From contig NZ_CP149130.1 of the NCBI RefSeq assembly GCF_037811135.1, positions 988,501 through 1,052,500 on the forward strand: a DNA stretch of 64,000 nucleotides, read 5' to 3'. A program made the translations under genes and the position numbers. Origin of the DNA: Aeromonas rivipollensis (lineage in GTDB: Bacteria > Pseudomonadota > Gammaproteobacteria > Enterobacterales > Aeromonadaceae). Shown one piece after another: positions 22,180 through 63,181 of this stretch (position 1 is its first letter; each line of letters starts with the position of its first letter). The notes beneath the pieces were generated by a model, which saw nothing but the letters and a program-made list of their open reading frames with translations, did not search any database and was not told the DNA's origin.

Positions 22180-22282
22180 CCCGCAGAGAAATGAGTTCTC
22201 TTGTTCTGTTACTCCGCCTGGTCAGGTTGCGGCAATGCGAGTCGCTGCGCGAGTCTAACCTGGCCCTTCTCTTCTTCACCCT

Positions 22283-22307
22283 GATCGCCCCTCACGGAGG
22301 GGCGATC
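22283..22307 (+). terminator. Hairpin between adhesin and TPR-sulfotransferase genes
   Basis: A perfect 10-bp stem (GATCGCCCCT/AGGGGCGATC) with a 5-nt loop, 104 bases past the adhesin stop and 25 bases before the next start. With no T-run it may be a partial terminator or an mRNA 3'-end stabiliser, reducing expression of the secretion genes relative to the adhesin. Confidence 0.55.
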
Positions 22308-22331
22308 TAGCCTCAGGATCCCGCTGTTCCT

Positions 22332-26263: not shown

Positions 26264-28424
26264 GCAAACCGCCGAGCAGGCGCCACAGAGCATGGCCCCT
26301 GCGTTGGTAAAACAGTTGTTGGTGTCCTTGCAGATCCCTTGCGACAGCCAAGCGTTGCAGCAGGCATGTGCTCAAACAGCGCATTCAGCCGCCGCCCTCG
26401 GGCCCGCACAGTGGCTGAGGCAGCTACTGATCCAGGCCGGATTGAAGAATCTCACGCCCGTGCAACTGCCCTGGCGTCGCCTCGACCAGCGCCGCTTGCC
26501 AGCGTTGGTCTGGACGGGGGGCGAGTGGTTGTTGGCCGAGCGTGATGCAGTCGGCCGCCTGACCTTGATCAACGCCGCCGGGGAGCACCGTGGCGTTGAT
26601 GATGCCGAGCTGCAGGATGCCCTGGTGGTCTGGCTGCGGGCGCCGACCCGCAGAAGCACAGAGGCCGACAGCGTATTGTCTGGCAACTTGGCGACGCGCC
26701 TGGTCTGGCGTGAACTGTTTCGTGAGCGTGGCTGGCTGTGGAAAGTCATGGTGGCCACAGTGCTGGTGAATCTGCTGGCGGTCGGCACCTCCATTTTCGC
26801 CATGCAGGTCTACGACCGTGTGGTACCCACACTGGCCTATTCGACCCTGACCACCCTGGTGACCGGCATGATGTTGATCATCCTGCTGGACTGGTTGCTG
26901 AAGATCACCCGGGCCAGGATCCTGGACAGTCTCTCCTGCGCGGTCGACAAGCGTGTTTCACAACAGGTCTTTGAGCATGTGCTGCATCTGCGCCTGGATC
27001 AGCAGCCGCGCAGCCTGGGTACCCTGGCGGCCCAGGTGGGCGGGCTGGATGCGGTAAGGCAGTTCTTCAGTGCCGGCGTGGTGTTCGCGCTGGTGGATCT
27101 GCCCTTTGCTGCCCTGTTTCTGGCGTTCATCGCCATCATCGGCGGCGCGGTGGGCTGGGTGTATACCCTGTTGCTGCCAGTGGCCTTGCTGCTGGGCTAT
27201 GTCAGCCAGTGGCGCCTTCGTGCCTTGCTGGCGCAGCAGATGCTGCGCAGCAACGAGCGCCAGGGGCTGCTGGTAGACACGATCCGGGGCGCAGAGACGA
27301 TTCGCGCCAACAATGCCGGCTGGCATTTTGCACAGGAGTGGCAAAACGTGACGGCGAGCATCGATGGCTACAACATCCAGCAAAAGGCTGTCAGCAGTTT
27401 GTCCAGCGTGAGCACCAGCAGCCTGTCGACCCTGGCCTATGTGGCCGCCGTGGTTGTCGGGGTGTGGCAGATCGAGGCTGGCCTCCTGACGATGGGGGGG
27501 ATGATCGCGTGCAGCATCCTGGGTGGACGGGTGATCGCCCCCATCGCCCAGAGTGTCCAGTATCTCGCCCAGTGGCAGCAAGTCAGGCAGGCATTGCAGA
27601 TGGTGCATCAGGTCTTGTCCCTGTCGCGGGATCGGCGCCCGGAGCAGCAACTGTTGCTGCCGGACGAACTCCCCAAAGAGGTTGCCCTGGAGCGCGTGCG
27701 TTTCGCTTACCCCGAATCGCCCATCTGTCAGCTCGACATCGAGCGCCTGCAGTTCAAGTCCGGTGAGCGGGTATTGCTGGTGGGGCCGATTGGGTGTGGC
27801 AAGTCGACGCTGCTGAAAATGCTTGCTGGGCTCTATTGCCCCGGCGAGGGACGTATCCGCCTGGGAGACGCCGATCTGTGGGAAATCGATCCCCAGTTGG
27901 TGGCCAGCCAGGTGGGTTATCTGCCGCAGGCCGTGCAACTGTTCAAGGGGACGCTGCGCAGCAACCTGGCCTTGACCGGCGTGACCAGCGACTCTCGCCT
28001 GCTGCAGATCACCCGCGAGCTCGGCATCGACGGCATTGCGGCATCCAGCCCCCAGGGCATGGATCTCGCCATCAGCGAGGGGGGAGAGGGGTTGTCTGGC
28101 GGCCAGAGGCAGCTGGTCGCCCTAGCACGGGTGCTGATCAATCAGCCAAGGGTGTGGCTGCTGGACGAGCCTACGGCGGCCCTCGACAACGAATCCGAAC
28201 AGCGCGTCTGGGCGGCCCTGCAAGAGGCGGTGCAACCCGAGGATATCTTGATCGTTGCGACCCACAGGCCCATGGCGGCCGCTCGACTGGCAACGCGGGT
28301 CATCGTCATGCAGCAGGGGCAGGTAGTAAAAGACGGCACGCCGGACCGGGTGCTGACACAGATGCTCGCCCGTCCGGTGGCATCCTCACAGATTGGCAAA
28401 GGAGGAAGGCTCGATGTGGTCTGA
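26256..28424 (+). CDS. Type I secretion ABC transporter (LapB-like)
   Basis: Inner-membrane exporter ATPase of about 722 residues. Residues 1-135 form a C39 peptidase-like domain with no evident catalytic Cys/His pair, as in LapB/HlyB transporters that recognise but do not cleave substrate. A six-helix membrane domain covers about 160-415. The ATPase domain has Walker A GPIGCGKST (about 510), signature LSGGQRQ (about 614) and Walker B VWLLDEP (about 630). The start at 26256 (MDRQTAEQ) was chosen over a GTG at 26238; GAGGAG lies about 10 bases upstream. It overlaps the TolC-like gene by 8 bases. Confidence 0.92.
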   Translation: MDRQTAEQAPQSMAPALVKQLLVSLQIPCDSQALQQACAQTAHSAAALGPAQWLRQLLIQAGLKNLTPVQLPWRRLDQRRLPALVWTGGEWLLAERDAVGRLTLINAAGEHRGVDDAELQDALVVWLRAPTRRSTEADSVLSGNLATRLVWRELFRERGWLWKVMVATVLVNLLAVGTSIFAMQVYDRVVPTLAYSTLTTLVTGMMLIILLDWLLKITRARILDSLSCAVDKRVSQQVFEHVLHLRLDQQPRSLGTLAAQVGGLDAVRQFFSAGVVFALVDLPFAALFLAFIAIIGGAVGWVYTLLLPVALLLGYVSQWRLRALLAQQMLRSNERQGLLVDTIRGAETIRANNAGWHFAQEWQNVTASIDGYNIQQKAVSSLSSVSTSSLSTLAYVAAVVVGVWQIEAGLLTMGGMIACSILGGRVIAPIAQSVQYLAQWQQVRQALQMVHQVLSLSRDRRPEQQLLLPDELPKEVALERVRFAYPESPICQLDIERLQFKSGERVLLVGPIGCGKSTLLKMLAGLYCPGEGRIRLGDADLWEIDPQLVASQVGYLPQAVQLFKGTLRSNLALTGVTSDSRLLQITRELGIDGIAASSPQGMDLAISEGGEGLSGGQRQLVALARVLINQPRVWLLDEPTAALDNESEQRVWAALQEAVQPEDILIVATHRPMAAARLATRVIVMQQGQVVKDGTPDRVLTQMLARPVASSQIGKGGRLDVV

Positions 28425-29631
28425 TCGTTTCTCTCAAGACGATGACGCTCGTACCCAGGCGCGGATCAGCAAGTTGCAGAACTCTCATCGGGGCCGCCAG
28501 GGCTGGTTGTTGATGGCCGCACTCGTGACGGTGGCCACCTTTGCCGTATGGGCCTCATGGTTTCGCGTAGACGAAGTTGCACGCGCCACCGGGGAGGTCA
28601 TTGCCAGCAGCCGGGTACAGATCATCCAGTCGGTGGATGGTGGCGTACTGGAACAATTGCTGGTCAAGGAGGGGGACAGGGTGGCCCCCGGTCAGTTGCT
28701 CGCCCGTCTGGAACAGACGAGGGTGGGGGCATCGGTCGGAGAAGTGGAGGCTCGCCTGTTTGCGCTTGAGGCCAGGGCAACCCGGTTGCGGGCGGAAGTC
28801 ATCGGTGAACAGCGACTCACCTTCTCACCTGACCTGCTGGCGCGTTCTCCCGAGACGGCCCGTGTCGAGGAGGCGTTGTTCAAGCAGCGTCAGACCGGCC
28901 TCAGGGAAGAGTTAAGAACCATGCGGGTGGCGGTGTCACTGGCCCAGAAGGAGTTGCGTCTGGTGGAGCAGCTTTATGCTGACGGCGATGCCAGCGGCTC
29001 CGAGCTGCTGCGGGTGCAGCGTGGACTCAACGAGGCCGAGGCCCGGCTGGTGAACCGGCGCAACCAGTTTCTTGAGGAGGCCAGGCTGGAGCTGGCCAAG
29101 GCGGAGGATGACATAGCACAGGGCACGCAGACCCTGACCCTGCGCAAGCAAGAGCAGCAAGACAGCATGTTTACCGCCATGGTGCCTGGCATCGTCAAGA
29201 ACATCCGGGTCACCACAGTGGGTGGTGTGCTCAGGGCCGGGGAGGAGCTGATGCAGATCATCCCGGTCGACGACGATCTGATGATCGAGGCCAAGGTGAG
29301 CACCGCGGACATTGCCCGTGTGGTGCCGGGTCTGGAAGCGACAATCCGTTTCGACACCTTTGACTACACCATCTTTGGCGGCGTGAAAGGGGAGGTGGCC
29401 TATGTCAGTGCTGACAGCCTCAAGGAAGAGACCAGTCGCGGCATGGATATCTATTATCGCGTGCGGATCAAGCCTGCCAGCTACCCCGTGACCTCCACGA
29501 CGGGCAGGGTGATCGACGTGCTGCCGGGGATGACGGCCCAGGTGGATATCCGCACCGGTGATCGCACCCTGATGGACTATCTGCTCAAGCCCCTGCGCAA
29601 GACCCTGAGCGAGTCATTCGGGGAGCGCTAG
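28414..29631 (+). CDS. HlyD-family membrane fusion protein (LapC-like)
   Basis: Periplasmic adaptor of 405 residues linking the ABC exporter to the TolC-like channel. One membrane helix lies at about residues 28-48 after a charged cytoplasmic start. A barrel-sandwich half (VIASSRVQIIQSVDGGVLEQ), a long coiled-coil hairpin and a second beta half (PGIVKNIRVTTVGGVL) follow, with a C-terminal PGMTAQVDIRTGDRTLMDYL motif typical of the family. The start at 28414 follows AAAGGAGGAAGG; it overlaps the ABC gene by 11 bases. It is the last gene of the operon. Confidence 0.92.
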   Translation: MWSDRFSQDDDARTQARISKLQNSHRGRQGWLLMAALVTVATFAVWASWFRVDEVARATGEVIASSRVQIIQSVDGGVLEQLLVKEGDRVAPGQLLARLEQTRVGASVGEVEARLFALEARATRLRAEVIGEQRLTFSPDLLARSPETARVEEALFKQRQTGLREELRTMRVAVSLAQKELRLVEQLYADGDASGSELLRVQRGLNEAEARLVNRRNQFLEEARLELAKAEDDIAQGTQTLTLRKQEQQDSMFTAMVPGIVKNIRVTTVGGVLRAGEELMQIIPVDDDLMIEAKVSTADIARVVPGLEATIRFDTFDYTIFGGVKGEVAYVSADSLKEETSRGMDIYYRVRIKPASYPVTSTTGRVIDVLPGMTAQVDIRTGDRTLMDYLLKPLRKTLSESFGER

Positions 29632-29825: not shown

Positions 29826-29831
29826 TTTATA

Positions 29832-29875
29832 TGGCGTTCCCGACTGGAGTCGAACTAGTGGCCTGTCCCTTAGGA
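29832..29875. repeat. Left attachment site (duplicated tRNA 3' end)
   Basis: 44 bases match the 3' part of the intact tRNA-Arg gene at 63138-63181, including the encoded CCA and T-arm up to the anticodon loop, with one difference (T-arm C to T at 29856). The match stops inside the anticodon region, as expected for a tyrosine-integrase crossover site. Confidence 0.92.
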
Positions 29876-30005
29876 GACGAGTTTGGTAGCGTTTCATAAG
29901 GTTTTATCAGGTTCCTGTAAACAAATTAAGTTATTGTAATTAAAGTGTATTTTTTGATTTTTTCGTTTCTGGTAGTGTCATGAAGTCTCACCGGATATCA
30001 TGTTT

Positions 30006-30030
30006 GCTGTGGTACCCCATGTGGTACCCC
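30006..30030 (+). repeat. Terminal double repeat, left copy (probable integrase arm sites)
   Basis: Two direct copies of TGTGGTACCCC with a 12-base period, immediately upstream of the integrase ribosome-binding site. The same 25 bases, with one mismatch, occur at 63057-63081 near the other end. Position and symmetry suggest arm-type integrase or excisionase binding sites. Confidence 0.75.
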
Positions 30031-30051
30031 AATAGCAGGCTGGAGCGTGAT

Positions 30052-31386
30052 ATGGCGAGAAAACCGGTAACCCAGGATCGTGAGATCCCCTCACTGGCTC
30101 TTCAAGGGGAGGCTTCGATTACTCGCTATGCGGTGAAGTCCCCTCATGGGGGCGGGCTGGCTATTGAGGTCAGGGCTGGAAAGAGTAAGCGATTCGTCTA
30201 TCGCTATCGGATTGCTGGGGCTCAAGCGGCAGTCATTCTGGGCAATTATCCAGCATTGTCGTTGGCCCGAGCGAGAAGTGAGCATGCAGAATTGGTCTCC
30301 CTGGTTAAGAAGGGGATCGATCCACGCAAGCATGTCGCCAGTGAAAAAACAAAAAATGAAACGGCTTTGACGATGGACGATCTGCTTGGTCGCTGGCTTG
30401 AAGCTCAACAGGTTGCCCAATCGGTAAAGCCTCTGACCCTACAGCGACATCAGGAACGCTGGGATCGTCATCTGAAGAAGACGCTAGGCAATATTCGTCT
30501 GATCGATCTCACTCGTGCGCATTTGGCCCAAGCATTGGAGATAACCAGGCGTGCGACAAAGGATGAGACCCGTAAGGGATTGGGAACGTTGAACCAGATG
30601 CTCGACTATGCTGTGGTGCATTGTCTGATTGAGGCCAACCCGGCTCGGTTATTGCGACCAAAAGACTTTGGGGCCAGTGCTGGGTCGCCAAGAGAGCGTT
30701 GGCTGACTGTGCCGGAATTACGTCGGTTGTGGAAAGCTATTGATGAGGATATGGGAAGCGGCGGTGGTTTAGCTACAGGAGGTCGTGGGGTCTCTCGTCA
30801 CGCAACTATATCGCTGCCAGCGGCTAATGCCATTAAATTACTGATCCTGACTGGGTGTCGTCGAAGTGAAGTCGCTAATATGCGTCTTTCTCAAATTAAA
30901 GATGATGTTTGGACGATACCGGAAACCAAAAATGGTAAATCACACTCAGTGTTTTTATCAAAAAAAGCGATGTCTGTCATTGCCGAACAGTCGAGCTATG
31001 TGAGTGGTGATTTTATATTTGAATCCGACCGTCCTAAATCAGGAGAGATTGAACCTATTTTGGTCGATTCTATTACACGAGCACTGCGGCGGTTGATTGC
31101 TCGTTCGTTACCGGATATGGAAACCTTTACTGTTCACGATCTAAGACGAAGTGCCGCAACTAATTGGGCGGAAAGGCTGGATGCAGAAGAGCGAGTGATC
31201 GAGCTTTGCCTGAATCATCTCCCTCTCAACAAACTTGTCAGGACATATCATCGCTCTCGTCATGATGATAAGAAAAAAATACTCTGGAAAACGTGGGGGG
31301 ACTTGGTGGAGCTGGAAATAGCTAACGATCCCCAAGAGCATAGAGAGATGGGGAATGTTGTTGAACTTATAAGACGAGTAAAATAA
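30052..31386 (+). CDS. P4-type tyrosine site-specific integrase
   Basis: Catalyses integration and excision of the island at tRNA-Arg. The 444-residue protein has an N-terminal DUF4102-like domain (AIEVRAGKSKRFVYRYRI, LGNYPALSLARAR), a core-binding domain and a catalytic domain. Catalytic residues are visible as Arg in TGCRRSE (about 275), HDLRR (about 362) and the Tyr of RTYHRSRH (about 399). The start at 30052 follows GGAG; an in-frame start at 29980 would translate through the double repeat and is unlikely. It reads into the island and ends at a strong terminator. Confidence 0.95.
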   Translation: MARKPVTQDREIPSLALQGEASITRYAVKSPHGGGLAIEVRAGKSKRFVYRYRIAGAQAAVILGNYPALSLARARSEHAELVSLVKKGIDPRKHVASEKTKNETALTMDDLLGRWLEAQQVAQSVKPLTLQRHQERWDRHLKKTLGNIRLIDLTRAHLAQALEITRRATKDETRKGLGTLNQMLDYAVVHCLIEANPARLLRPKDFGASAGSPRERWLTVPELRRLWKAIDEDMGSGGGLATGGRGVSRHATISLPAANAIKLLILTGCRRSEVANMRLSQIKDDVWTIPETKNGKSHSVFLSKKAMSVIAEQSSYVSGDFIFESDRPKSGEIEPILVDSITRALRRLIARSLPDMETFTVHDLRRSAATNWAERLDAEERVIELCLNHLPLNKLVRTYHRSRHDDKKKILWKTWGDLVELEIANDPQEHREMGNVVELIRRVK

Positions 31387-33409: not shown

Positions 33410-34033
33410 ATGAAATACTATCAATCCAATCATGGGAACCATATCGAAAACTACAGGGAGAGAACCCTGAATGTAATCCAATTAGCGACTAAGGATCATC
33501 CGAGAACGCTTGCAATTCGAGTAGATCTGCATGACCCGGCCATACTGGATAATGGTGATACTATTGATTGCTTGTATGACAACTCCCCAAATGTAATAGC
33601 AAGGTTCATCAACTCGCTCAAAGCGAAGATCGATGTGTATCAGCAACGTCAACGTGCGAATGGAGTAAGGGTATATCCCAATACCCTCCGATATGCTTGG
33701 GTACGTGAGTACAGCCAAACAGGAAAGCGCCATTATCATGTTCTTTTGCTCTTGAACAAGGATGCCTTCTTTCATTTGGGAGACCATGATCTAGACCGAC
33801 CAACACTACGAAGCATGATCACCACCGCTTGGTGTAGTGCACTGAATCTTTATCCTAATGAGGGGCAGCATCTCGTTCACTATGCAGATAAAGGAGTGTT
33901 TGAGCTTACGAGGAAAGATGTTGAGTCAGGGTATTACCCTGGAGGGTTCTTGGATCGGATTGACTATATGGCAAAAGAGAGAAGCAAAGTTTTCGGAGAC
34001 GGTAATCGTAATTTTGGTTGCAGCACCAAATAG
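33410..34033 (+). CDS. YagK/YfjJ-type, inovirus Gp2-like protein
   Basis: A 207-residue protein resembling the YagK/YfjJ C-terminal domain and inovirus Gp2 proteins found on P4-like satellites and islands. Relevant segments are RYAWVREYSQTGKRHYHVLL (about 91-110), where HYH recalls a HUH metal motif, and YPGGFLDRIDYMAKE near the end. This suggests a rolling-circle initiator-like ancestry; activity here is unproven. Many homologues are longer at the N-terminus, so this may be a trimmed version. No strong ribosome-binding site is apparent. Confidence 0.7.
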   Translation: MKYYQSNHGNHIENYRERTLNVIQLATKDHPRTLAIRVDLHDPAILDNGDTIDCLYDNSPNVIARFINSLKAKIDVYQQRQRANGVRVYPNTLRYAWVREYSQTGKRHYHVLLLLNKDAFFHLGDHDLDRPTLRSMITTAWCSALNLYPNEGQHLVHYADKGVFELTRKDVESGYYPGGFLDRIDYMAKERSKVFGDGNRNFGCSTK

Positions 34034-34149
34034 AGTGTTTGAGAGCAGGCCGTTGTTATTAACAAGGGTACGTATTGATAGTCTGGGGTGCTAGCCCCCA
34101 AATCTGTTAAGCTAGCTCTTCATTTGTCATCGTATCATTCGGAGTCATC

Positions 34150-34670
34150 ATGGCAGCTTATTCCCCTCCATTCGCCCTGACCCACGCCATGATGAGCCGG
34201 GTGGCGGAAATCGCCGAGTTGGTAGGGCAGTGGCGGGCAACCCAAAGTTCTCAAGTGCCGATGCTGCGTCGGGAGAACCGGATCCGCACGATCCAGGTAT
34301 CCCTGGCCATTGGATTTGACCCCATCGAGCACAATACCCTGAGCCTGGAACAGGTCACTGCGGTGATTGAAGGGAAAGTGGTGCTGGCATTCCCTGTGAG
34401 ATCTAGGAGGTCCACAATGCCTTTGCGGCCTATTAAGCCATGCCAGACTGGGAGCCCACTTCACTTGTAGGCTTGCTCAGTGCCCATGGGCGATTGATGT
34501 ACTGGTTGTGTGGTGATGGGGAACTGGCGTAGTAACGGGGGCGAGATTTACCGTGGTGAACAGCTAGTGCATATGGCGCCACCAGCTAACCATTGATCCA
34601 GTCTGATGGGGTAACTGTTGTAGTCTTTCACCCCCTTCGCTGACGGTAATGGTCGGATGGGCCGTCCGGG
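34150..34670 (+). pseudogene. Decayed Fic-family gene
   Basis: The opening 80 codons read as a Fic N-terminal region (LRRENRIRTIQVSLAI, EHNTLSLEQVTAVIEGK). The frame is then broken, and further Fic segments continue in other frames: EVHNAFAAY, AMPDWEPTSL with two stops, GGEIYRGEQLVHMAPPAN, and the catalytic motif HPFADGNGRMGR at 34629-34665 after a one-base insertion. Intervening sequence is missing and nothing recognisable follows. Fic enzymes AMPylate target proteins and often act as toxins, but this copy cannot be functional. Confidence 0.88.
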
Positions 34671-34893
34671 GGGATTAGCAAGCTAACTTCTGTTTGAAAA
34701 TGTGACATGTGTTTTTATACACCAGTTCAGACCACATAATTTTTATGTATGATGGCGAAACAAAAATAACAGCATGTTCATGCACTTGCTCACCTTCATT
34801 GAGCTGAATGAGGAGTGTGCAGGTAGTAAGCAAGGCTTATGCAACAGCTCTCAGCAATGCATTTTTTATTAAAATTCGTAAAGGAATACTGCC

Positions 34894-35994
34894 ATGCCAA
34901 TTCCAATTATCCTCGGTGCAGCTGCACTGGCTACTGCAGCCTACGGCGCCAAAAAGGGCTATGACGGCTACCAGAAACACTCTGAAGCAGACGATACCGT
35001 TAACTCTGCAAAAAGGCGTTACGAGGAAACAAGAACACCGTTTGACATACAGGAAAAGGCCACCAACGAAGTCCTTGATGTATTGGGGCAGGAAGAACTA
35101 AAGATCGGACAGCAGTTCAACGAGTTCAAAACACTGGCCGATGACCTTCTGCAAAAGCTCAACAGCGGTCGTCAGGATAAACTTGAGATCAGCATTCCCA
35201 AGCACAAACTACAGAAAATTGAGGGTTACAGCTATACAGCCATTGGTGTGTTGGGTGCAGCGGCTGGAGCTGGGGCTGCTGGAGCTGCGGCCGGGTTTGC
35301 CATTTATGGCGGAGTCATGGCTCTGGGTGCTGCCTCTACCGGTATAAGTATTTCTGCGTTATCCGGCGTCGCCGCTACCAACGCTACTCTGGCAGCCATT
35401 GGCGGTGGGTCTCTTGCCACTGGTGGTTTGGGCATGGCTGGAGGCAGCGCGATCCTCGGTGCAGCCGTGGCTGGTCCAGTGCTAGCTATTGCTGGCTGGG
35501 CATACAACAGCCACGGCGAGGAGGCGATTAAGAACGCGAATAAAATAAACAGCCAAGTTGGCAGCGCTATTGCGAAACTTAAAAAGGCTCAGGAACAGCT
35601 CAGTAACACCGAAGATTATGCTTTCGAAATTATCGAGGTGATGAAGACTGTTTTCGCCCAGTTTGACCACTACTTCGACATCCTCAAGGCTGTTGCTCGC
35701 CAAATTGAAGCAGCTAAGGTGCTCAAACAAGATCCACAAGTGGCGTTGGCTCAATTGAGCGATACCATTATGCGTGCAATTGGCAACGGCTATGCTCTGG
35801 CTGCTATTCTCGTTGACCTGATTACCACACCGTTATTCCGGGTTAAGCATGTCAACGGTGAGATCCAGAAAGACGAGAATGGCGTACCGGTGATGGATAC
35901 GGACGAAGACGGCTCAATGATCCTCAATACAGAGCAGTTGGATGAACAACTCAGTGGCACAAAGACCAGTGCGGCTCGTATAGAGCCAGCATAA
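34894..35994 (+). CDS. Unknown Gly/Ala-rich membrane-associated protein
   Basis: A 366-residue protein I do not recognise. A short hydrophobic N-terminus is followed by a charged helical region (about 20-110). A long Gly/Ala-rich hydrophobic stretch (about 110-205), with glycine-zipper-like spacing, could insert into a membrane or form a pore. A second helical region (about 210-310) precedes a polar acidic tail. AAGGA lies about 9 bases before the ATG. It is the first gene of a compact unit with the HNH-like and Cys-cluster genes; a small hairpin separates it from the second gene. An effector role in phage defence is possible but speculative. Confidence 0.75.
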   Translation: MPIPIILGAAALATAAYGAKKGYDGYQKHSEADDTVNSAKRRYEETRTPFDIQEKATNEVLDVLGQEELKIGQQFNEFKTLADDLLQKLNSGRQDKLEISIPKHKLQKIEGYSYTAIGVLGAAAGAGAAGAAAGFAIYGGVMALGAASTGISISALSGVAATNATLAAIGGGSLATGGLGMAGGSAILGAAVAGPVLAIAGWAYNSHGEEAIKNANKINSQVGSAIAKLKKAQEQLSNTEDYAFEIIEVMKTVFAQFDHYFDILKAVARQIEAAKVLKQDPQVALAQLSDTIMRAIGNGYALAAILVDLITTPLFRVKHVNGEIQKDENGVPVMDTDEDGSMILNTEQLDEQLSGTKTSAARIEPA

Positions 35995-36003
35995 CTTACT
36001 TGC

Positions 36004-36019
36004 GGGGCCGTTAGGCCCC
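36004..36019 (+). terminator. Intercistronic hairpin in the unknown operon
   Basis: A 6-bp stem GGGGCC/GGCCCC with a GTTA loop, followed by a T-rich but interrupted tract, in the 48-base gap between the first and second genes. It probably gives partial termination and sets the ratio of the two products. Confidence 0.55.
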
Positions 36020-36042
36020 TTCTTGATATTGTTTAGATAGTC

Positions 36043-37677
36043 ATGGACGCCACTATGCACACCGCCGCGCAAGACTTCCCGTGGGCTGTAGAGCTCGAGA
36101 AAACCGTTATCAATAGCTTGGTTACCAGTTTTGGACTGGATTTTTTGTTGTTTAAAGATCAGAAGGGCGGTGATGTAAACACGATCCACAATGTTCGTAA
36201 TGGCGTGTGGGCTACAACTGATGAACAGCTGCGTTATGAACAACGCGAAGATTACAATAGTGAGCTCTACCATAAGCACGCTAATTACATTGCCACCGGC
36301 GAGCGGGATAAAGCCAAGCAATCCGCCGGCACCTTGCATGACCCTTATCGCAATACAATGATGGGCGCGAACGAGCAGCGCAACCTCGACCACGTTATCA
36401 GTGCAAATGAAATCCATAACGATCCTGGTCGTGTTCTGGCCGGTCTAAATGGGGTGGAACTGGCTAATCAAAGTAGCAACCTGCAAACCACCCTCGAAAC
36501 CGTCAATAAATCGAAAAAAGATTCGTCTATCAACCAGTATCTGCAACGGCTACCGGGTCTGATTAATGAGCACGAAACTCAGCTGGCTAAAGACCGAGCC
36601 CGCTTGGCTACCCTGCAGCGCGACACACCAGAGCAGCAGCACAAGGCCCGGGAACTGGAAGACACGATCCGTAAAACCGAAATCAAAGTCTCAAAACTCA
36701 AGTCGGTGGATCCTGATGCCATGCGTAAACGTGATGCTGAGGCTAGAGCGCCGTATGAGCAACAGATTAACCACACCTACTACACTAGCAGCAAGTTTCT
36801 CCACGAAACCGCCAGCGCCGCAGGTAAAGCCGGCTTGGCCATGGGCACCCGACAAATGCTCGGAATGGTCATGGCAGAGGTGTGGTTTGAACTACGCGAA
36901 CAACTGCCAGCCCTGCTGACCAAGCTCAAAGTTAATTTCAGCTTCGAAACGTTTGTAGACAGCATCACTGCCTCGCTTAAAGGCATCTGGGAACGAGTCA
37001 AAGCACGTTTTAACGCCTTCTTGGTTGCATTCAAAGACGGCGTATTTTCAGGCATCCTCGGTAGCCTTACAACCACCGTATTCAACATCCTCGCCACCAC
37101 CCATGTAATGGCGATTAAGATCATTCGTGAGATCTGGGGTGTATTGGTCAAAGCCATCAAGTTATTGGCCTTCAATCCCGACAAGCTCAACTTCGTTGAA
37201 TTGTGCCAGGCGGTCACCTCATTGTTGTCAGTCGGAGCAGCTACCACCATAGGCTCCATGGCCTACGCCCAACTGTTGCCAATATGCAGTTTTCCGTTCG
37301 GTGCCGAGCTTGCAGCCTTTGCCAGTGCTCTGATAACAGGCACTGTTACCCTCGGACTCAACTATTTTTTGCTGCACAGCAGTGTGGCTCGTAAGCTGTG
37401 GGCCTTCGTCGAATCCATGGGGCCACATGCAGGCACGCTTAAACAGTTCCAGGCTATCAATGCAGAACTGGATCGTTATCTGGCCGAGTTGACCCAACTG
37501 GAATTCAATCTAGACGTAGAAGAATTGCAGACCTTTACCCTCGAACTGCAAAGCTGTAACGATGAACTGGAGCGTAGTGTGGTGTTGCAGCAACAGGTGC
37601 TGGCCCGCGGTATAGAACTGCCGTTCGAGATGGGGAATGCCGCCAGCACCCGTAACTGGCTGGCCTCAAAGCTATGA
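36043..37677 (+). CDS. HNH-like nuclease fused to membrane helices (unknown function)
   Basis: A 544-residue protein with no family I can name. The N-terminal part has a spacing like an HNH nuclease: NLDHVISANEIHND (His117), SSNLQTT (Asn146) and NKSKKD (Asn155/Lys158). A charged coiled-coil segment covers about 165-235. Several hydrophobic helices lie at about 325-365 and 390-440, then a helical C-terminus. A nuclease or other hydrolase tethered to the membrane is the simplest reading, by inference. It overlaps the next gene by 4 bases (ATGA), so translation is coupled. An alternative ATG lies at 36055. Confidence 0.72.
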   Translation: MDATMHTAAQDFPWAVELEKTVINSLVTSFGLDFLLFKDQKGGDVNTIHNVRNGVWATTDEQLRYEQREDYNSELYHKHANYIATGERDKAKQSAGTLHDPYRNTMMGANEQRNLDHVISANEIHNDPGRVLAGLNGVELANQSSNLQTTLETVNKSKKDSSINQYLQRLPGLINEHETQLAKDRARLATLQRDTPEQQHKARELEDTIRKTEIKVSKLKSVDPDAMRKRDAEARAPYEQQINHTYYTSSKFLHETASAAGKAGLAMGTRQMLGMVMAEVWFELREQLPALLTKLKVNFSFETFVDSITASLKGIWERVKARFNAFLVAFKDGVFSGILGSLTTTVFNILATTHVMAIKIIREIWGVLVKAIKLLAFNPDKLNFVELCQAVTSLLSVGAATTIGSMAYAQLLPICSFPFGAELAAFASALITGTVTLGLNYFLLHSSVARKLWAFVESMGPHAGTLKQFQAINAELDRYLAELTQLEFNLDVEELQTFTLELQSCNDELERSVVLQQQVLARGIELPFEMGNAASTRNWLASKL

Positions 37678-37946
37678 CGTTACCAGCTTTTCCCTGTACT
37701 CAATGCGGGCAGTGCTGCCGCAATGTGCATCTGGCGGAGGAAACTCGGTACTTGGATCGGGGGGATGGCACTTGCATACACTACTGTGATGCAAGCAAAC
37801 AATGTTGGATTTATGAAACCCGGCCAGATATTTGCCGGGTGGAACGGCAATACCGGATGAATTATTCAGGTCTGTATAGCTGGGAAGAGTTTGTAGAGGC
37901 GAATGTCAAAGTTTGTCAGTTGCTGCAGAGTGTAGTGATAAAATAA
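37674..37946 (+). CDS. YkgJ-family cysteine-cluster protein
   Basis: A 90-residue protein with CTQCGQCC at the N-terminus, two Cys in the middle (CIHYC) and CWIYETRPDICRVE. These are the signature of YkgJ/UPF0153-type proteins thought to bind zinc or an iron-sulfur cluster. Its start overlaps the stop of the HNH-like gene, so the two products are likely partners. In this place it might sense metal or redox state, or assist maturation; neither can be read from sequence. Confidence 0.85.
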   Translation: MTLPAFPCTQCGQCCRNVHLAEETRYLDRGDGTCIHYCDASKQCWIYETRPDICRVERQYRMNYSGLYSWEEFVEANVKVCQLLQSVVIK

Positions 37947-38060: not shown

Positions 38061-38987
38061 TTACTCTACCTGCCGCACCTGTAAATCAGCACTCTTGAGT
38101 TTGAAGATACAGCCTTGCTGGATCAGCTCATCTCGATTAGCCAGCACCAGCGGGTGAAGTAGGGGATGGTTCTCATGTTCGCCGTTATAGCTCACCTGTA
38201 TCCGTTCCAGCGCGTAGTGCATCAATGGAATTCTCTGTGCGATCAGCAATTTGCCATCGATCATAGCGTAGTCACTGGCGATGATGGCTTGCTGTCCCTG
38301 ACTCAGGCCGGGATTGGGGGTGACGATGGCGGTTACCTGAGCATTCCATTCAAGGTCTTGGTCACGGCCATGGGCTGAGCCATCGAGCAGTTCCGGCTCC
38401 CCCCGAAAACGGCTCATCACGAAGTCCAGATATTCTCCCTTCTTCTCGCAGTAGGCGCGTACATGCCAGCGAATGCCGTCATAGACCAGGGTGTGCGGCA
38501 CGATATTGCGGCCACTTCTCTCTTCTGAACTCAGCGACACATAGTCCACATCCACCCGCAGCTGGCTGCGGGCGGCCTGCACCAGACCGCGCACGATGAC
38601 GGGCTCGATATGGCGATTGGGCACATCCAGGATCTCGATATGGCCGTAACGCAGATCCATCAGCGGGAGGGTCAATACCCCGGCCTCGTGTTGGCGCTGA
38701 TGCTGTTTCTCCCGGTGCAGCAATATCAGGTACTCATCCACCGTGCCCTCGCTAAAGCGGGGCACGAACTTGGCGGTAGGCTTATACCCTTTCAAACTTT
38801 TGTCATACACCAGCCCCTCTGGCGAATAGCCGTTGAGGTAGAGGTTGATGTCCCTCGATGCCTGCTGGCGGCCGATGTTGAAGGCGGTGCAGAGGTGATT
38901 GGTGGTCAGCCGTCCCTCCCACTGCAGCACTATCTCCAGCAGGCGAAAGCGCAGGGTCTGCTCCCAGGTGAGATCCTTGAGTGTCAT
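38061..38987 (-). CDS. WYL-domain transcriptional regulator (BrxR/CapW type)
   Basis: A 308-residue regulator with an N-terminal winged helix (RFRLLEIVLQWEGRLTTNHL), a WYL domain around about 130-215 (VPHTLVYDGIRWHVRAYCE) and a C-terminal extension. This layout fits BrxR/CapW-type repressors that control BREX, CBASS and other defence loci and may respond to nucleic-acid ligands. The start at 38987 follows TGGAG; the longer frame to 39158 would run over the divergent promoter. It likely represses itself and the divergent gene at 39090, and perhaps the restriction operon further on. Confidence 0.88.
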   Translation of the reverse strand: MTLKDLTWEQTLRFRLLEIVLQWEGRLTTNHLCTAFNIGRQQASRDINLYLNGYSPEGLVYDKSLKGYKPTAKFVPRFSEGTVDEYLILLHREKQHQRQHEAGVLTLPLMDLRYGHIEILDVPNRHIEPVIVRGLVQAARSQLRVDVDYVSLSSEERSGRNIVPHTLVYDGIRWHVRAYCEKKGEYLDFVMSRFRGEPELLDGSAHGRDQDLEWNAQVTAIVTPNPGLSQGQQAIIASDYAMIDGKLLIAQRIPLMHYALERIQVSYNGEHENHPLLHPLVLANRDELIQQGCIFKLKSADLQVRQVE

Positions 38988-39032
38988 GTGTGCTCCAAAA
39001 TGCGACATGTGTATGTACCCAGTATCGGCATG

Positions 39033-39053
39033 AGTATACAAGCTACATATACT
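39033..39053. promoter_or_regulatory. Candidate WYL-regulator operator
   Basis: An imperfect palindrome (AGTATACA...ACATATACT) in the roughly 100-base gap between the divergent WYL and ADP-ribosylglycohydrolase-like genes. BrxR-type regulators bind such palindromes in their own promoters; binding here is inferred. Confidence 0.5.
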
Positions 39054-39089
39054 GCTCGCATCTGAAGTCTGTGCCAAAGGAGCCTGCTT

Positions 39090-39761
39090 ATGAGCTGCTA
39101 TCAGGATACTGCCTTGCTCAAAGGACTTTGTTGTCTGGCCACTGCCGAACAGGTTCACGAGCTCATCACGGTGGTCGCAAGGGAAGAGTTAGCAATTGGC
39201 TTACCCAAGATAGTGCATGCCAGAGCTGAGTCTGAAGTGTGCAGGTTGGCACGGTTGGCTATGCATATCGAGCAAAACCGGCTGGATCGCACAGACCTGC
39301 CTGTCTACCAGGGGAGAGAGCAACTGATGTCCGGTGCTGCCGCTCTACTGGAGGAGGATGCCAGCCTCGAATGCCAAGATGCCATGCGATGGCTGGCGCT
39401 GTTGCTCGACAAACTACTGCGGGGAAACCATGGTAGCCAGCAGGCCAAGCTGGATGGACTCACTATGACGGCAATGGAGATCCGCGCCCTGGCGCCTGAG
39501 TCCCTCAATACGGGCGCCGTGATGCGAGGCAGTTGGCGGCGCAAGGCGCGCAATCAACTCGGTCACGCCAGTTGGCTCGATGTGGTAGAAGCAGCGCTCT
39601 GGTGTTTTTGGCACAGCGATGATCTGAAAGGTGGGGAGGCTCTGTTAGGCGTGTTGCTGGGGTCAGATAGCCGGGTGCGCTTGATCTACGGTATGCTGTG
39701 CGGGGCCTTCTATCATGTAGATACGGCAACCATCTCTGCGAATCCCTCATCTTCTATTTAA
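39090..39761 (+). CDS. Degenerate ADP-ribosylglycohydrolase-like protein
   Basis: A 223-residue protein whose C-terminal part resembles bacterial ADP-ribosylglycohydrolases: WLDVVEAALWCFWHSDDLKG and then LLGVLLGSDSRVRLIYGMLC. In active enzymes the last segment carries a DDADT-type metal-binding motif; here it reads SDSRV. The N-terminal GDALG-type metal motif is also absent. It has a good AAGGAG start signal. The protein is probably catalytically dead, a decayed remnant or a repurposed binding protein. It diverges from the WYL regulator gene. Confidence 0.65.
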   Translation: MSCYQDTALLKGLCCLATAEQVHELITVVAREELAIGLPKIVHARAESEVCRLARLAMHIEQNRLDRTDLPVYQGREQLMSGAAALLEEDASLECQDAMRWLALLLDKLLRGNHGSQQAKLDGLTMTAMEIRALAPESLNTGAVMRGSWRRKARNQLGHASWLDVVEAALWCFWHSDDLKGGEALLGVLLGSDSRVRLIYGMLCGAFYHVDTATISANPSSSI

Positions 39762-40152
39762 TTCATCTGCCTCAAAACACGCCATGTGAAAAACCACAGT
39801 ATCGAGATGGTCAGGCGGGATGGATATAGTTGACCACTACAGACAGGCATCTGCCTATATCGGGTTTATTTCCAGCCAACTGCAACAGGGTGGCAGGCTA
39901 GGCAGGTAGAAATAAACCGACACCCAGGGCAGTACACGGAGTCAAATGACGGCATGAACTTGGCTTTATTGGGCTCAATCATGGACGCGCTGCGGCTCAT
40001 GAGGCCCATCTAGTCGGTTTAAGTGGAAATAAGTTTTGGGGAGATTACCCGGGGACCTCCTTGGTGGGGGTCGTTTGGAGTGGCTCGTTCAAGACATTCC
40101 TTCTAAAAAAAAGCATAATGTAGAATCACTTACTGAGAATGTTTCGTCTGAC
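39762..40152. other. Intergenic region with inverted repeat before the restriction operon
   Basis: No gene seen. A 10-bp inverted repeat GGTTTATTTC (39865-39874) / GAAATAAACC (39910-39919) could form a stem-loop. The operon promoter should lie in this 391-base stretch; I cannot place it reliably. An in-frame extension of the next gene to 40036 is likely untranslated. Confidence 0.5.
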
Positions 40153-42027
40153 ATGAGCACTATCACTCCGCACTACCGCAGTGTGCAGCAGTTACTGCAA
40201 AGCCAATCTTTTGCCATCGACGAGTACCAGCGTGAGTACAAGTGGGAAAAGGAGAATATCGAAGAGCTGTTGTCTGACTTGCAGGCTAAATTTTTTAGCC
40301 ACTACAAGCTAGGCGACGAAACTACAGCAGTCAGCAGCTATGGCGAATATTTCCTCGGTTCCATCATTGTCAGTAAGCGCAACGGTAAAAACTATCTAAT
40401 CGACGGCCAACAGCGGGTAACTTCTCTGACTCTGTTGCTCATATGCCTGTATCGTGCGGCCAAGATACAGAAACTATCGGTGGGAGGAACCGTTGCCCCG
40501 CTTATCTTTAGCGATAACTTGGGCAAACCCAAATTTAACCTCGACATACCCGAGCGACTGCCCGTCATCAAGGCGCTGTTTGAAGGCCAAGAATTTAATC
40601 CGGATGGTAAAGATGAGTCCATCCAGACCATGTACGCCCGCTACGGCGACATTGAATCGAACGATCTGATCGCAGATCTGGGTGATGCACTGCCACATTT
40701 CATCTACTGGTTGTTGACCCAGGTAGGCTTGATCGAGATCGCGACGGATAACGACAGCTATGCCTACGCTATCTTTGAAACGATGAATGACCGGGGCAAA
40801 CCTCTGAGTCCGGTGGATATGTTGAAGGCCTATCTGCTTGCGCCAATTGAAGAACCGGAAGAGCGACAGCAAGCTAATCAGACATGGAAGAGAGAGGTAC
40901 TGGAGCTAATCTCTTGGGATGGCAGCCACGAGCCTGAGCGAGATGCCAATTGTATTAAAGCCTGGTTGCGGGCGCAGTATGCCGAGAGTATTCGCGAACG
41001 TAAGGCTGGCTCAGTAGACAAAGACTGGGAGTTGATTGGTTCTGCATTCCACCGTTGGGTGCGTGACCATAGTGACCAGATGGGGCTTGGTAAGTCCCAG
41101 GGGAACCAGAAACTAATGGTTGAGAGCTTCCCGTTTTTCGCCAAGGCCTATCGGCACATCCTGCACGCCAGTAAGAATTACACACCAAGTATGAAGGCTG
41201 TTTACTACAACGCGCACAATGATTTCACTTGGCAGAGCACGGTATTGCTCGCTCCGCTAGTTGAAACCGATGATGACGATACAGTGAAACGCAAGTTGGC
41301 AGTGACAGCAACCTATCTGGACATTTGGTTGATGCGTCGAGTAGTGAATTACGTCCGGGTTGGGTACTCCAGCGTGTCTTACGCCATGTGGTTGTTGTGT
41401 CGAGAGATCCGGCGCAAAGCACTACCAGAATTAGTAACCATTCTCCAAAAGAAACTGGCGGATGATGAAGTGACATTCTCCGGCTATGAGACAAAAGGGC
41501 GAACGGGTATTGATGGATTGGGACTCAATCAGTTCAGTCGCCGTTATATTTACCATCTGTTGGCACGACTAACAGAGGCGACCGAGATCGGAGCGGGGCG
41601 TACCGAGACATTTGATAAATTGGTGGATCGCTCTCTTAAGAACCCATTCGATATCGAGCACATTTGGGCAGACGATTACGACGCGCTGAAGGAGCTGTTC
41701 AGCACCGAGCAAGAGTTTCAGGATTGGCGCAACCATGTTGCGTCGCTTTTGTTATTGCCTGCAGATGTTAATCGGAGCCTACAAGACAAGCCGTTCCCTC
41801 AGAAGCGGATGCACTACGCCAAACAGAATTTTTACGCCGCTAGCCTAGATGCCAGCGCGTATGAACATCAGCCACAGTTTCAGCAGTTTGCAACCCAAAA
41901 CCAGTTGCCTTTCAAAGCCGCCGAAGTATTTGACAAAACTCAGCAACAGACGCGGCGTGAACTCGTTGTGGGGCTAGTGGAATTGATCTGGTCTCCGGAT
42001 CGCTTAAGTGAAGCCGCTTATGCCTGA
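40153..42027 (+). CDS. Single-chain GmrSD-like nuclease (DUF262 + DUF1524)
   Basis: A 624-residue protein combining a ParB-like DUF262 domain with a DUF1524 HNH nuclease domain, as in type IV GmrSD restriction enzymes that cut modified (for example glucosylated) phage DNA using nucleotides. DUF262 hallmarks are FAIDEYQREYKWE (about 20) and LIDGQQRVTSL (about 83). DUF1524 is seen at about 498-560 as FDIEHIWAD, then a LLLLP..VN segment and K..Y. The start at 40153 matches the domain beginning, but its ribosome-binding site is weak. It heads a co-directional defence operon, 29 bases before the helicase gene. Confidence 0.9.
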   Translation: MSTITPHYRSVQQLLQSQSFAIDEYQREYKWEKENIEELLSDLQAKFFSHYKLGDETTAVSSYGEYFLGSIIVSKRNGKNYLIDGQQRVTSLTLLLICLYRAAKIQKLSVGGTVAPLIFSDNLGKPKFNLDIPERLPVIKALFEGQEFNPDGKDESIQTMYARYGDIESNDLIADLGDALPHFIYWLLTQVGLIEIATDNDSYAYAIFETMNDRGKPLSPVDMLKAYLLAPIEEPEERQQANQTWKREVLELISWDGSHEPERDANCIKAWLRAQYAESIRERKAGSVDKDWELIGSAFHRWVRDHSDQMGLGKSQGNQKLMVESFPFFAKAYRHILHASKNYTPSMKAVYYNAHNDFTWQSTVLLAPLVETDDDDTVKRKLAVTATYLDIWLMRRVVNYVRVGYSSVSYAMWLLCREIRRKALPELVTILQKKLADDEVTFSGYETKGRTGIDGLGLNQFSRRYIYHLLARLTEATEIGAGRTETFDKLVDRSLKNPFDIEHIWADDYDALKELFSTEQEFQDWRNHVASLLLLPADVNRSLQDKPFPQKRMHYAKQNFYAASLDASAYEHQPQFQQFATQNQLPFKAAEVFDKTQQQTRRELVVGLVELIWSPDRLSEAAYA

Positions 42028-42056
42028 CCGATCGCAGCAGCCAAGGTAAGAGACTG

Positions 42057-45000
42057 ATGGAGCTTATTGACAACATTAACCGCCTGCTCGGTGACGACCT
42101 TAAGCAAACGCTCAAACCTGGGGCTCGACTGAAGATCGCGGCTTCTTGCTTTTCGATGTACGCCTTTGAGGCGCTGAAAGCTGAACTTGAGACAATCGAC
42201 GAGCTAGAGTTCATCTTCACCTCTCCCACCTTTGTTGCCAACGAAGTTACCGACAAGATCCGCAAGGAGCGTAAGGAATTCCACATCCCCAAGCTCGACC
42301 GTGAGCGCAGTCTCTACGGTAGTGAGTTTGAAATCCAGTTGCGCAACAAACTCACCCAACGAGCGGTAGCCAAGGAGTGTGCCGACTGGATACGACGCAA
42401 GGCGGTGTTCAAGAGCAATCGCACCAAAGCACCTATGCAGCAGTTTGCCTGCGTGCAAGCCAACGACGCAGACATGGCCTATATGCCGTTGCATGGTTTT
42501 ACCGCCGTCGATCTGGGTTACCAACCGGGCAATGCCATTTCCAATCTGGTGAACAAGATGGATGAGGCCCCCTTTGCCGCCACTTATCTCAGTCTGTTCA
42601 ACCAGATTTGGCATGATTCTGAGAAGCTGGAGGACGTGACTGCTCAAATTTGTGAACACATAGCCTCGGTGTATCAGGAGAACTCGCCCGAGAGCATCTA
42701 CTTCCTGATGCTCTACAACATCTTCAACGAGTTCCTTGACGACATCGATGAAGACGTCCTGCCCAATGATCGCACCGGCTATCAGGACACTCTGGTCTGG
42801 AACAAGCTTTTCAATTACCAGAAAGATGCCGCCACCGGGATCATCAACAAGCTTGAGACCTACAGTGGCTGCATCCTTGCCGACAGCGTTGGTTTGGGCA
42901 AGACCTTCACGGCACTGGCCGTCATCAAGTATTACGAACTGCGTAATCGCTCAGTGCTGGTACTCTGCCCGAAGAAGCTGGCCGACAACTGGCTCAACTA
43001 CAACCGCAATCTCAAGACCAACCTCTTCGCCCGTGATCGCTTTAACTACGACGTCCTTTGCCACACGGATTTTTCCCGTACCAGTGGTGAGTCTTTCGGT
43101 ACGCAGTTGAATCGGATCAACTGGGGCAACTACGATCTGGTTGTCATCGATGAGTCTCACAACTTCCGTAACAACAACGCCTACAAAGAAAAAGAGACCC
43201 GTTATCAGACGTTAATGCGCAAGGTGATTCAAGAGGGGGTGAAGAGCAAGGTGCTGATGCTGTCGGCCACACCAGTCAACAACCACTTTGCCGATCTCCG
43301 CAACCAGTTAGCATTGGCCTACGAGGGTGACTCTGAAAACCTGAGTAAGAAACTGCGCACGAGCAAATCGGTGGAAGAGATCTTCCGTAATGCCCAAAAA
43401 GCCTTCAATGCGTGGTCAACACTACCACCTGAAGAGCGCACCGCACGGGCAATTTTGGACTCGCTGGATTTCGATTTTTTCGAGTTGCTCGATAGTGTCA
43501 CCATTGCTCGCTCACGCAAACATATCCAAACCTTCTACGACACCAAAGACATCGGTCAATTCCCTGAACGACTCAAGCCTTTGTCGTTCCGTTGCCAGTT
43601 GACTGATCGCCCAAATGTGTTGGGCTTTAACGAGATTTTCGAGCAACTTTCCCAGCTTAAGTTGGCCGTCTACACGCCAGCGGCTTACCTGTTGCCAAGC
43701 AGAGTCCAGAAATACATTGATCGCTATAACGATCAATCTGGCGGTAAGCATGGCAACCTAAGTCTGGTTGGGCGAGAACAAGGTCTACAGGCGTTGATGA
43801 CAGTGAATCTGCTAAAGCGGCTGGAGAGCTCAGTAGAGTCTTTCCGGTTGACTCTCCAATCACTGCGGACCAACCACGATGCAATGCTCGCCCGAATTGC
43901 AGCATTCAACCAAGCTGGCGGGGTTGCAACGGTGGGTGACCTTACCGATATCCTGGATAGACTGGATGCTGAAGAAGACGAACTGCCGACGCTGAGCGAT
44001 GAAGCCGGGGAGATTGGCGGCAAGGTCAAGATCAGTCTGGCGGATATGGACCTGCTCTCCTGGGAACATGAACTCAAGCGGGACGTGCAGATCATCGGTG
44101 TGTTATTGGAAGAAATGGGCAAAATCACGCCCAAAGACGATGCCAAGTTACAACACATGAAGGCCCACTTGCTGGAGAAGATTGCCAACCCCATTAACCC
44201 CGGCAATAAGAAAATTCTGATCTTCACCGCCTTTGCTGACACTGCCGACTATCTCTACGCCAACCTTGCGCCCGAGATGCTTGCCCGTTTCTCGATTCAC
44301 ACCGCCAAAGTGACTGGCACAGGAGCGCCTCAATCGACCGTTAAACATCGTGGGCAAAGGCGTAGCTATGACTTCCAAGAGCTGCTAACCCTATTTTCGC
44401 CACGGTCCAAGGAGAAAGCGGTAGTGATGCCAGATGAACCCGCCGAGGTGGATCTGCTGATAGGCACCGACTGCATCTCCGAAGGGCAAAACCTGCAAGA
44501 TTGCGACTACCTGATCAACTACGACATTCACTGGAACCCGGTGCGCATCATTCAGCGTTTTGGCCGGGTCGATCGCATCGGCTCGCCTAATAGCTGCATC
44601 CAGCTAGTTAACTACTGGCCCGATATCTCGCTCGATGAATACATCAACCTCAAAGAGCGCGTCGAAAGCCGCATGATGATTGCCGATGTGACGGCAACGG
44701 GGGACGATAACGTCCTCTCAGCACAGGCCAACGATGTTTCATACCGCAAAGAACAATTGCGTCGGTTGCAAGAAGAAGTGATCGAACTGGAAGAGTTGAA
44801 GACCGGTGTATCCATCACCGATCTGGGTCTCAACGATTTTCGGATGGACTTGCTCAATTACGTCAAAGTCCACGGTGACTTGGGTAATGTACCGAGTGGG
44901 ATGCACGCCGTCGTGCCCGCCAATCCCGACATGGGGCTCCGACCTGGGGTGATTTTCACGCTGCGCAATCGCAACACCGATATCGGCATTAACCAGCACA

Positions 45001-63129: not shown

Positions 63130-63137
63130 GTTTTGTA

Positions 63138-63181
63138 TGGCGTTCCCGACTGGAGTCGAACCAGTGGCCTGTCCCTTAGGA
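63138..63181. repeat. Right attachment site inside the tRNA gene
   Basis: The 3' 44 bases of the tRNA-Arg gene, repeated at 29832-29875 with one difference. This copy belongs to the intact tRNA. Confidence 0.9.

Follow-up and report, generated by a model that had tools for sequence, protein, structure and literature searches.

We describe a three-gene cassette, A-B-C, in a 64,000-nucleotide stretch of the Aeromonas rivipollensis genome (contig NZ_CP149130.1, positions 988,501 to 1,052,500; hereafter the window, whose coordinates are used unless another sequence is named). Our comparisons suggest that the cassette is an inducible defence against invading DNA, built around a putative HNH nuclease (B) that would be tethered to the membrane and would act much as SNIPE does, while being unrelated to it; we give this reading about one chance in two. 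The initial annotation of this DNA had proposed a membrane-acting, possibly abortive-infection system in which a nuclease-like protein acts together with a metal- or redox-binding partner. Its components have stood, namely the HNH domain, the hydrophobic half of B, the Cys-cluster partner and the conservation of the genes as a set, and the setting is mobile, with WYL and some defence-gene matches close by; as to how they work, direct cutting at the membrane would fit the anatomy at least as well as abortive infection.

The three open reading frames (ORFs) are intact and co-directional on the forward strand, as first described: A, of 366 residues, occupies 34894-35994; B, of 544 residues, 36043-37677; and C, of 90 residues, 37674-37946, the last two overlapping by ATGA. 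The start of B may be its second ATG (36055), the counterpart of which is used in the public annotation of one homologue. The small hairpin said to separate A from B is present at 36004-36019 on the same strand (GGGGCC-GTTA-GGCCCC, then TTCTT) and is a possible attenuator; it has a 6-bp GC stem and a folding z of −2.0 over 55 nt. Read by eye, it is kept in three Aeromonas sequences, the window included, and in three of the four aligned Pseudomonas sequences, the fourth of which (L055) has a different inverted repeat at that position. Terminator-like matches around the hairpin did not rise above those in shuffles (2 versus a mean of 3.7).

Homologues of B were sought in 84,980 species genomes, which gave 123 relatives, and 80 of these loci were examined. 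All three genes are found together in 75 of the 80 loci, A and B in four, and B and C in one; the A-B-C unit is therefore real and its co-occurrence far beyond chance, which lays to rest the concern, raised with the initial annotation, that the genes might not be conserved together. The order is A-B-C in 55 loci, B-C-A in 16 and B-A-C in two, the other seven being incomplete, split or duplicated. Sixteen of the 18 reordered loci belong to what we take to be lineages outside Pseudomonadota (Clostridia and other Bacillota, Treponema and other spirochaetes, Fibrobacter and Gastranaerophilales), and thus the set outlives its gene order. Among the 67 loci with complete genes, the Mantel distance correlations are 0.95 for A-B, 0.86 for B-C and 0.84 for A-C; the 53 loci arranged as A-B-C give 0.93, 0.80 and 0.74, with permutation maxima of 0.19-0.23. 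The ratio of non-synonymous to synonymous substitution rates (dN/dS) lies between 0.05 and 0.38 in 11 of 12 comparisons with four relatives, one being undefined and several having saturated dS. A, B and C are co-inherited and under purifying selection. The cassette also gets lost, as shown by broken copies of B, with an internal TGA in genome G217 (L007/L076) and several fragments in L106 and G265. A local duplication is seen at L284 (genome G293, contig 24), where a single C shares a 19-kb region with B in two copies and three A-like genes.

The evidence for the nature of B comes from an alignment of 66 sequences, consisting of the window protein and 65 of the 76 usable ones among the 80 loci (L076, L096, L098 and L106 were left out as broken, truncated or decayed). 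The HNH-like spacing noticed earlier, D116-H117 followed by N146-x8-N155-x2-K158, falls within a domain of approximately residues 95-170 (36325-36552); D116, H117, N146 and N155 are present in all 66 homologues and K158 in 57. The profile-profile comparison that had been suggested as a check drew on 15 of 18 GmrSD_C hits, split by eye into three and 12, and on 26 HNH_4 hits. Residues 90-178 of B (66 sequences) matched the group of three, which are ORFs of 239-263 residues over the Pfam GmrSD_C cut-off (L183, L187 and L189), at 97.9% in hhalign (E 4.5e-13) across 74 columns, the D-H pair, the two N residues and the K all aligning in register. The controls, which were five column shuffles, the C-terminal half of B, the stretch before the domain and the C protein, gave no more than 2.7%. 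In the reverse search, the B profile found ORFs matching only at the HNH region in nine of 394 genomes, eight of them of 234-258 residues and one of 364; the best (1.9e-8) is one of the three hhalign target proteins, and the rest range from 1.4e-6 to 8.8e-4 per genome. On the basis of the profile-profile match to three related HNH proteins, the assignment of the head of B to an HNH-type nuclease domain, of a GmrSD_C-like branch, is confirmed at the level of the sequence profile, by which the HNH-like fold on which the earlier proposal hung was examined.

The membrane helices predicted for B in the initial annotation are reflected in family-averaged hydropathy, which marks a hydrophobic region at residues 332-448 (37036-37386) with three hydrophobic, charge-poor segments over the 66 sequences (332-353, 384-420 and 411-448). 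B is probably held in the membrane through this C-terminal half, the insertion and the topology being presumed. The protein also matches the PADLOC model PDC-M40B as a distant relative (2.6e-29), as do all 66 homologues. PDB sequence searches with the profiles of B and of the E proteins described below gave no believable HNH or nuclease relative, and a restriction-modification test found no methyltransferase match in A, B or C. Matches of B to tape-measure proteins (E 0.5-1) and to a collagen-binding adhesin (0.0055) were rejected.

For A, the alignment has 57 rows, the window protein and 56 of 71 homologues, one row (L115) being poorly aligned. Hydropathy averaged over these homologues indicates a hydrophobic N terminus, and the stretch first called glycine-zipper-like is borne out as a Gly/Ala-rich, charge-poor segment of 99 residues (111-209; 35224-35520) with many invariant Gly, which may form membrane hairpins. 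A matches PADLOC PDC-M09A (1.5e-21 for the window protein; 56 of the 57 homologues match) and, in part, LeoBC (2e-6; 46 of 57), and LeoA models match seven of the 57. A weak and partial similarity links it to the binary pore-toxin subunit alpha-xenorhabdolysin A (E 0.037). Among the best 60 of 255 matches in a PDB sequence search with the A profile, there was no believable HNH or nuclease relative. Viral fusion proteins and hemagglutinins also matched (best 0.00019), which we put down to coiled-coil or hydrophobic composition; matches to ATP-synthase gamma (E 0.0097-0.041) were rejected. The public names 'cobalamin adenosyltransferase' and 'chemotaxis protein', carried by A and B on many plasmid records, look like misannotation, because no cobalamin or chemotaxis domain was found in either protein with Pfam or NCBIfam at E 1.

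The third protein was described at the outset as a YkgJ-like Cys cluster, and C does exceed the cut-off of PF03692 (27.8 bits versus 23). Cysteines 8, 11, 14, 15, 34, 44 and 54 are present in 76 of 77 rows and Cys 81 in all 77. The family name suggests that C binds a metal or an iron-sulphur (Fe-S) cluster. C is present in 76 of the 80 B loci and matched no PADLOC model at 0.1.

Adjacent to the cassette and convergent with C is the WYL-domain regulator gene that had been noted there (38061-39158, reverse strand; PF13280, 4.9e-11). We examined this association in 50 of the 80 loci, mostly with full flanks, and counted a WYL place when its mapped stretch formed an open frame; it was not always possible to match the contig numbers. 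A WYL domain lies within approximately 3 kb of A-B-C in 38 of the 50 genomes, which contain 129 WYL domains altogether; about 0.3 would be expected by simple proportion. The WYL gene probably regulates A-B-C, the downstream operon, or both. No WYL operator could be established ahead of A, where the one inverted repeat found (in 34600-34900) measures 9 nt. Other neighbours were compared with PADLOC in 31 of the 80 loci, some of one genus, using ORFs of at least 200 residues within about 3.5 kb and, as controls, one other stretch of the same genome (five of 36 control stretches did not exist). The scan took in 119 of 120 neighbour and 120 of 122 control proteins, the longest being left out. At 1e-15 or better, the neighbours from these 31 genomes matched 36 models with at least 13 names (13 among the 25 listed), versus eight models (five names) for the controls; some of the models counted are redundant, covering one family, and the control stretches were not picked at random. 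These neighbour matches and the WYL association support the part of the earlier description that placed WYL and defence genes nearby. On Duffyella plasmid L038, ShlB/FhaC-family and hemagglutinin-repeat two-partner secretion genes (plasmid positions 12042-17572) lie about 2 kb downstream of A-B-C.

The distribution of A-B-C is patchy and mobile, with plasmids, exchange of the cassette and an island at a tRNA-Arg gene all represented. In the genus, B occurs in five of 37 genomes. A survey of the order with the B profile gave 31 of 394 genomes, 15 of them strong (E < 1e-60); A is present in all 15 of the strong-B genomes and in none of the 16 weak ones, whose matches are distant relatives, the HNH region only, or fragments. 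The phylum survey gave seven of 396 genomes, two strong. Among 72,556 plasmid records, B was found in 64 (46 of which cover at least 80% of it), and 19 of these are typed as conjugative and 11 as mobilizable. It was present in four of 5,426 E. coli genomes, a lower bound obtained at the DNA level. Genes with the annotation 'inovirus-type Gp2' were seen near A-B-C on one E. coli plasmid and in one E. coli island. Exchange of the cassette itself is apparent in Aeromonas fluvialis (L043), where 3,259 bp corresponding to 34671-37928 of the window (forward strand) match at 96.3% identity and the flanking DNA is without a match; at least 2.3 kb downstream lie relatives of genes from the right end of the island (61973-63001 at 76%, plus shorter matches), and such right-end genes recur beside A-B-C in L043 and L044. 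In A. bivalvium, the cassette matches at 90.6% and is followed by the WYL gene at 80.8%.

B also occurs in seven of 50,697 phage records, which represent four Aeromonas phages including duplicate entries. Two jumbo-phage loci were viewed, from Aeromonas phages LAh10 (L035) and D3 (L041), and both have A and B without C. The phage A genes were recognized with phmmer, by which the gene next to B is homologous to A in both loci (9e-37 and 1e-37); tblastn with C and with A in the phage records gave no match. The third gene of these loci is not a C homologue, and the different 152-residue protein that follows A and B in both has a start resembling a signal peptide. The B of LAh10, the one aligned, keeps the HNH residues. 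The occurrence of A and B in phages suggests that the pair can work on behalf of a phage as well, perhaps against its competitors. A virus-contig scan with B confirmed none of 53 stretches.

Several observations weigh against the reading of A-B-C as a defence with a membrane-tethered HNH nuclease. K158 is replaced in nine of the 66 homologues. The three HNH targets were picked by eye as B-like among 15 GmrSD_C hits, and hhalign of B against the other 12 GmrSD_C, generic HNH_4 and Cas9-type HNH gave 0.4%, 2.2% and 10.7%, respectively. A direct Pfam scan of the window B found no HNH family at E 1; among its homologues, weak matches to GmrSD_C were seen in seven of 66 (best E 0.034) and to HNH_4 in six (best 0.046), fewer than the 19 that match the transporter membrane family BPD_transp_1. 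The enrichment of defence-type neighbours, with the qualifications on models and controls given above, is modest beyond WYL, because WYL dominates (21 members for the top model) and the other listed matches, which include LeoA, LeoBC, MzaA, type I restriction, reverse-transcriptase and other candidates, are single or double. Since jumbo phages carry A and B, a phage-serving role exists. Finally, it is from sequence that we infer nuclease activity, membrane insertion and antiviral function.

With these points in mind, one could envision the following scheme, in which complex formation, topology, DNA as the substrate, repression by the WYL protein and the trigger are all presumed. The WYL repressor would hold expression of the operon low. 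A, a glycine-zipper-like membrane protein, would form a membrane platform with B, the effector, an HNH DNase kept at the inner membrane by its C-terminal half, and C, the small Cys-cluster protein, which may bind a metal or Fe-S cluster, would keep the complex off or mature it. Injection of phage or plasmid DNA would trigger the membrane complex, and B would cut the DNA at or near its site of entry, so that location would separate self from non-self, as in SNIPE.

Alternatively, the unit might act by abortive infection, with A and/or B permeabilizing the membrane, or B degrading the host chromosome, and with C as a restraining, antitoxin-like partner. The Gly-rich hydrophobic character of A and its similarities to LeoBC and alpha-xenorhabdolysin A would suit a pore, although these similarities are weak and partial; the association with WYL suggests that basal expression must be limited, and C is retained in 76 of 80 loci. 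However, the two jumbo-phage loci have A and B without C, and the LAh10 protein keeps the HNH residues, which argues that C is not an obligatory antitoxin there. We think that abortive infection is rather unlikely, if worth weighing. We consider it improbable that the cassette is a barrier mainly against plasmids and conjugation (entry exclusion) with phage resistance as an incidental effect: the 64 plasmid records, with their conjugative and mobilizable members, and the integrative islands would be in keeping with such a role, as would the entry of conjugative DNA at the membrane, but jumbo phages carry A and B and the neighbours include phage-defence matches. A function outside defence, whether in a membrane process linked to stress or metals or as a contact-dependent toxin for which C would be the immunity protein, appears a little less probable again, since the public names that would point to housekeeping are backed by no corresponding domain in either A or B at E 1, the patchy mobile distribution and the WYL association argue against housekeeping in spite of the metal-type Cys cluster of C, and the Duffyella secretion gene pair downstream of the unit is the only such case among 10 annotated regions viewed.

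Relatives of A that lack B also bear on the proposed nuclease at the membrane, as they pair with other partners, with or without C. One partner, X, is a protein of 131-144 residues beside A relatives in four loci (L128, L129, L131 and L282), two of which (L129 and L282) have the arrangement A-X-C. By source, A-X-C is seen in genome G360, and A and X occur with C on a Massilia plasmid and without it on Acinetobacter and Vitreoscilla plasmids. Three X proteins tested had no PADLOC match. A second kind of partner, the E proteins of 477-541 residues, stands beside A in six genomes (L277-L281 and L283), with C in L277 and L279; a WYL gene that Pfam confirms lies next to three of these loci (G361, G054 and G241). 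The hydrophobic C-terminal half of E resembles that of B in hhalign (78.7%, E 1.7e-5, 143 columns; 69.1% with the whole of E), whereas five shuffles gave at most 0.17% and the reversed control 2.1%. The heads of E and B do not match (hhalign 0.14%). The E heads have an invariant pattern, E98...D135...Q151-x-K153 in L278 numbering, in all six proteins, which, from the motif, we take to be PD-(D/E)XK nuclease-like. The groups of A with E proteins are apparently a sister system, to judge from these sequences.

More distant relatives of B have yet other neighbours. Two loci (L122 and L123) have WYL, a Gly-rich protein and B, and the Gly-rich partner in L123 (genome G084) has a TerB domain confirmed by Pfam; TerB is not claimed for G047, G361 and G241, where the Pfam TerB matches lie elsewhere. 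Two further loci (L124 and L125) have B with PDC-M40C. A tentative generalization, about which we have more doubt than confidence, is a modular and hitherto undescribed membrane immunity class with a common chassis (A, C, WYL and a shared C-terminal membrane domain) on which nuclease heads are swapped. The head may be HNH in B and of the QxK PD-(D/E)XK-like type in E, with X as a third kind of partner; the fitted head may cut DNA entering through the membrane, and the order of the genes may have been reshuffled between phyla while the set was kept. Such swapping of heads on a common membrane half favours a nuclease at the membrane over a pore former.

In the window, A-B-C lies within an integrative island of approximately 33 kb (29830-63182) at a tRNA-Arg gene of the host genome, which is 4.55 Mb in one contig. 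Direct repeats of 47 bp that differ at one position delimit the island (29830-29876 on the left, 63136-63182 on the right), and the second of them overlaps the tRNA-Arg gene at 63138-63214; a tyrosine integrase gene is situated just within its left end (29980-31386), and G+C, in 2-kb steps, drops from 0.59-0.68 in the left flank to 0.41-0.62 in the interior. Upstream of the unit and outside it is the dead fic gene recognized at the beginning, which is genuine: positions 34121-34620 (forward strand) are 75.8% identical to Fic-annotated DNA of an Aeromonas media plasmid. A YagK/YfjJ-type gene precedes it at 33410-34033. Beyond the convergent WYL gene is a defence-type gene group (40036-50738), comprising a canonical GmrSD-type protein with a GmrSD_N domain (40036-42027), an HKD/Snf2 helicase (C3a139, 2.7e-122), DUF4391, an AAA/UvrD-like protein with a weak likeness to GajB (UvrD-helicase), and a type III methyltransferase (48813-50738). 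The region 15013-29631 contains an ORF of 2388 residues, apparently repetitive (its antisense ORFs are evenly spaced), followed by TPR/sulfotransferase, outer-membrane efflux, ABC transporter and HlyD genes, and looks like a locus for a giant protein exported by type I secretion.

That no described defence system has this set of genes holds for the literature searched, in which subscription papers and bioRxiv are thinly covered, and in which we found no description of the A-B-C gene set and no mention of PDC-M40; it needs the amendment that PADLOC already has undescribed candidates related to A and to B, under different system names. Two other PADLOC PDC candidates were reported in a 2025 study to be inactive in its setting (PMC12409345), so that candidate status is not function. 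B resembles PDC-M40 in its match to PDC-M40B, and the relatives at L124 and L125 (1e-141 and 2e-150; the genes are those of L021 and L019) retain D-H and N-x8-N-x2-K; however, those relatives have the coiled-coil PDC-M40C downstream, and A and C of the window match no model of PDC-M40C. The likeness to PDC-M09 consists in the match of A to PDC-M09A and in the X protein that adjoins some A relatives without B, whereas A is partnered here by B, with its HNH domain and hydrophobic half. No further PDC-M09 model is matched by B or C of the window, and the PADLOC library does not show which components that system requires.

The HNH domain of B aligns with the three GmrSD_C/DUF1524-type proteins with the catalytic residues in register, but those proteins are without the rest of B, canonical GmrSD proteins carry GmrSD_N, and no alignment to B was obtained with the 12 canonical GmrSD_C domains (0.4%). 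With LeoABC, the resemblance is of A to part of LeoBC, and LeoA matches at least two neighbouring proteins, whereas LeoA models match none of the three window proteins and only part of LeoBC is common. WYL repressors of the BrxR/CapW type are likewise found beside phage-defence genes (PMC9122601), although the main text of that paper mentions neither HNH nor YkgJ.

The closest parallel in action would be SNIPE (PD-lambda-1), described as a GIY-YIG membrane nuclease that defends by cleaving phage DNA during injection (PMC13190303), a paper from whose main text the term HNH is absent. Cells with SNIPE are reported to survive infection at high multiplicity, the phage DNA being lost early while that of the host stays intact. 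B shares with SNIPE the membrane-anchored nuclease, predicted here from its primary structure, but SNIPE consists of an N-terminal transmembrane segment, DUF4041 and GIY-YIG, whereas B would belong to another nuclease family, has C-terminal hydrophobic segments and is accompanied by two partner genes. DUF4041 and GIY-YIG had no match in A, B or C and are not among the 25 of 135 families listed for the 66 B homologues. If our reading of A-B-C is true, two undescribed PADLOC candidate families, linked through common partners, would gain a role, and misleading annotation (cobalamin adenosyltransferase, chemotaxis protein) would be corrected on many plasmid records. There is also the question, posed by the conserved Cys-cluster partner, of whether a metal or Fe-S protein gates the nuclease. 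Membrane location as the means of telling self from non-self DNA, reported for SNIPE in 2026, would then be a design that has arisen repeatedly and independently, with nucleases unrelated to one another and with dedicated partner proteins.

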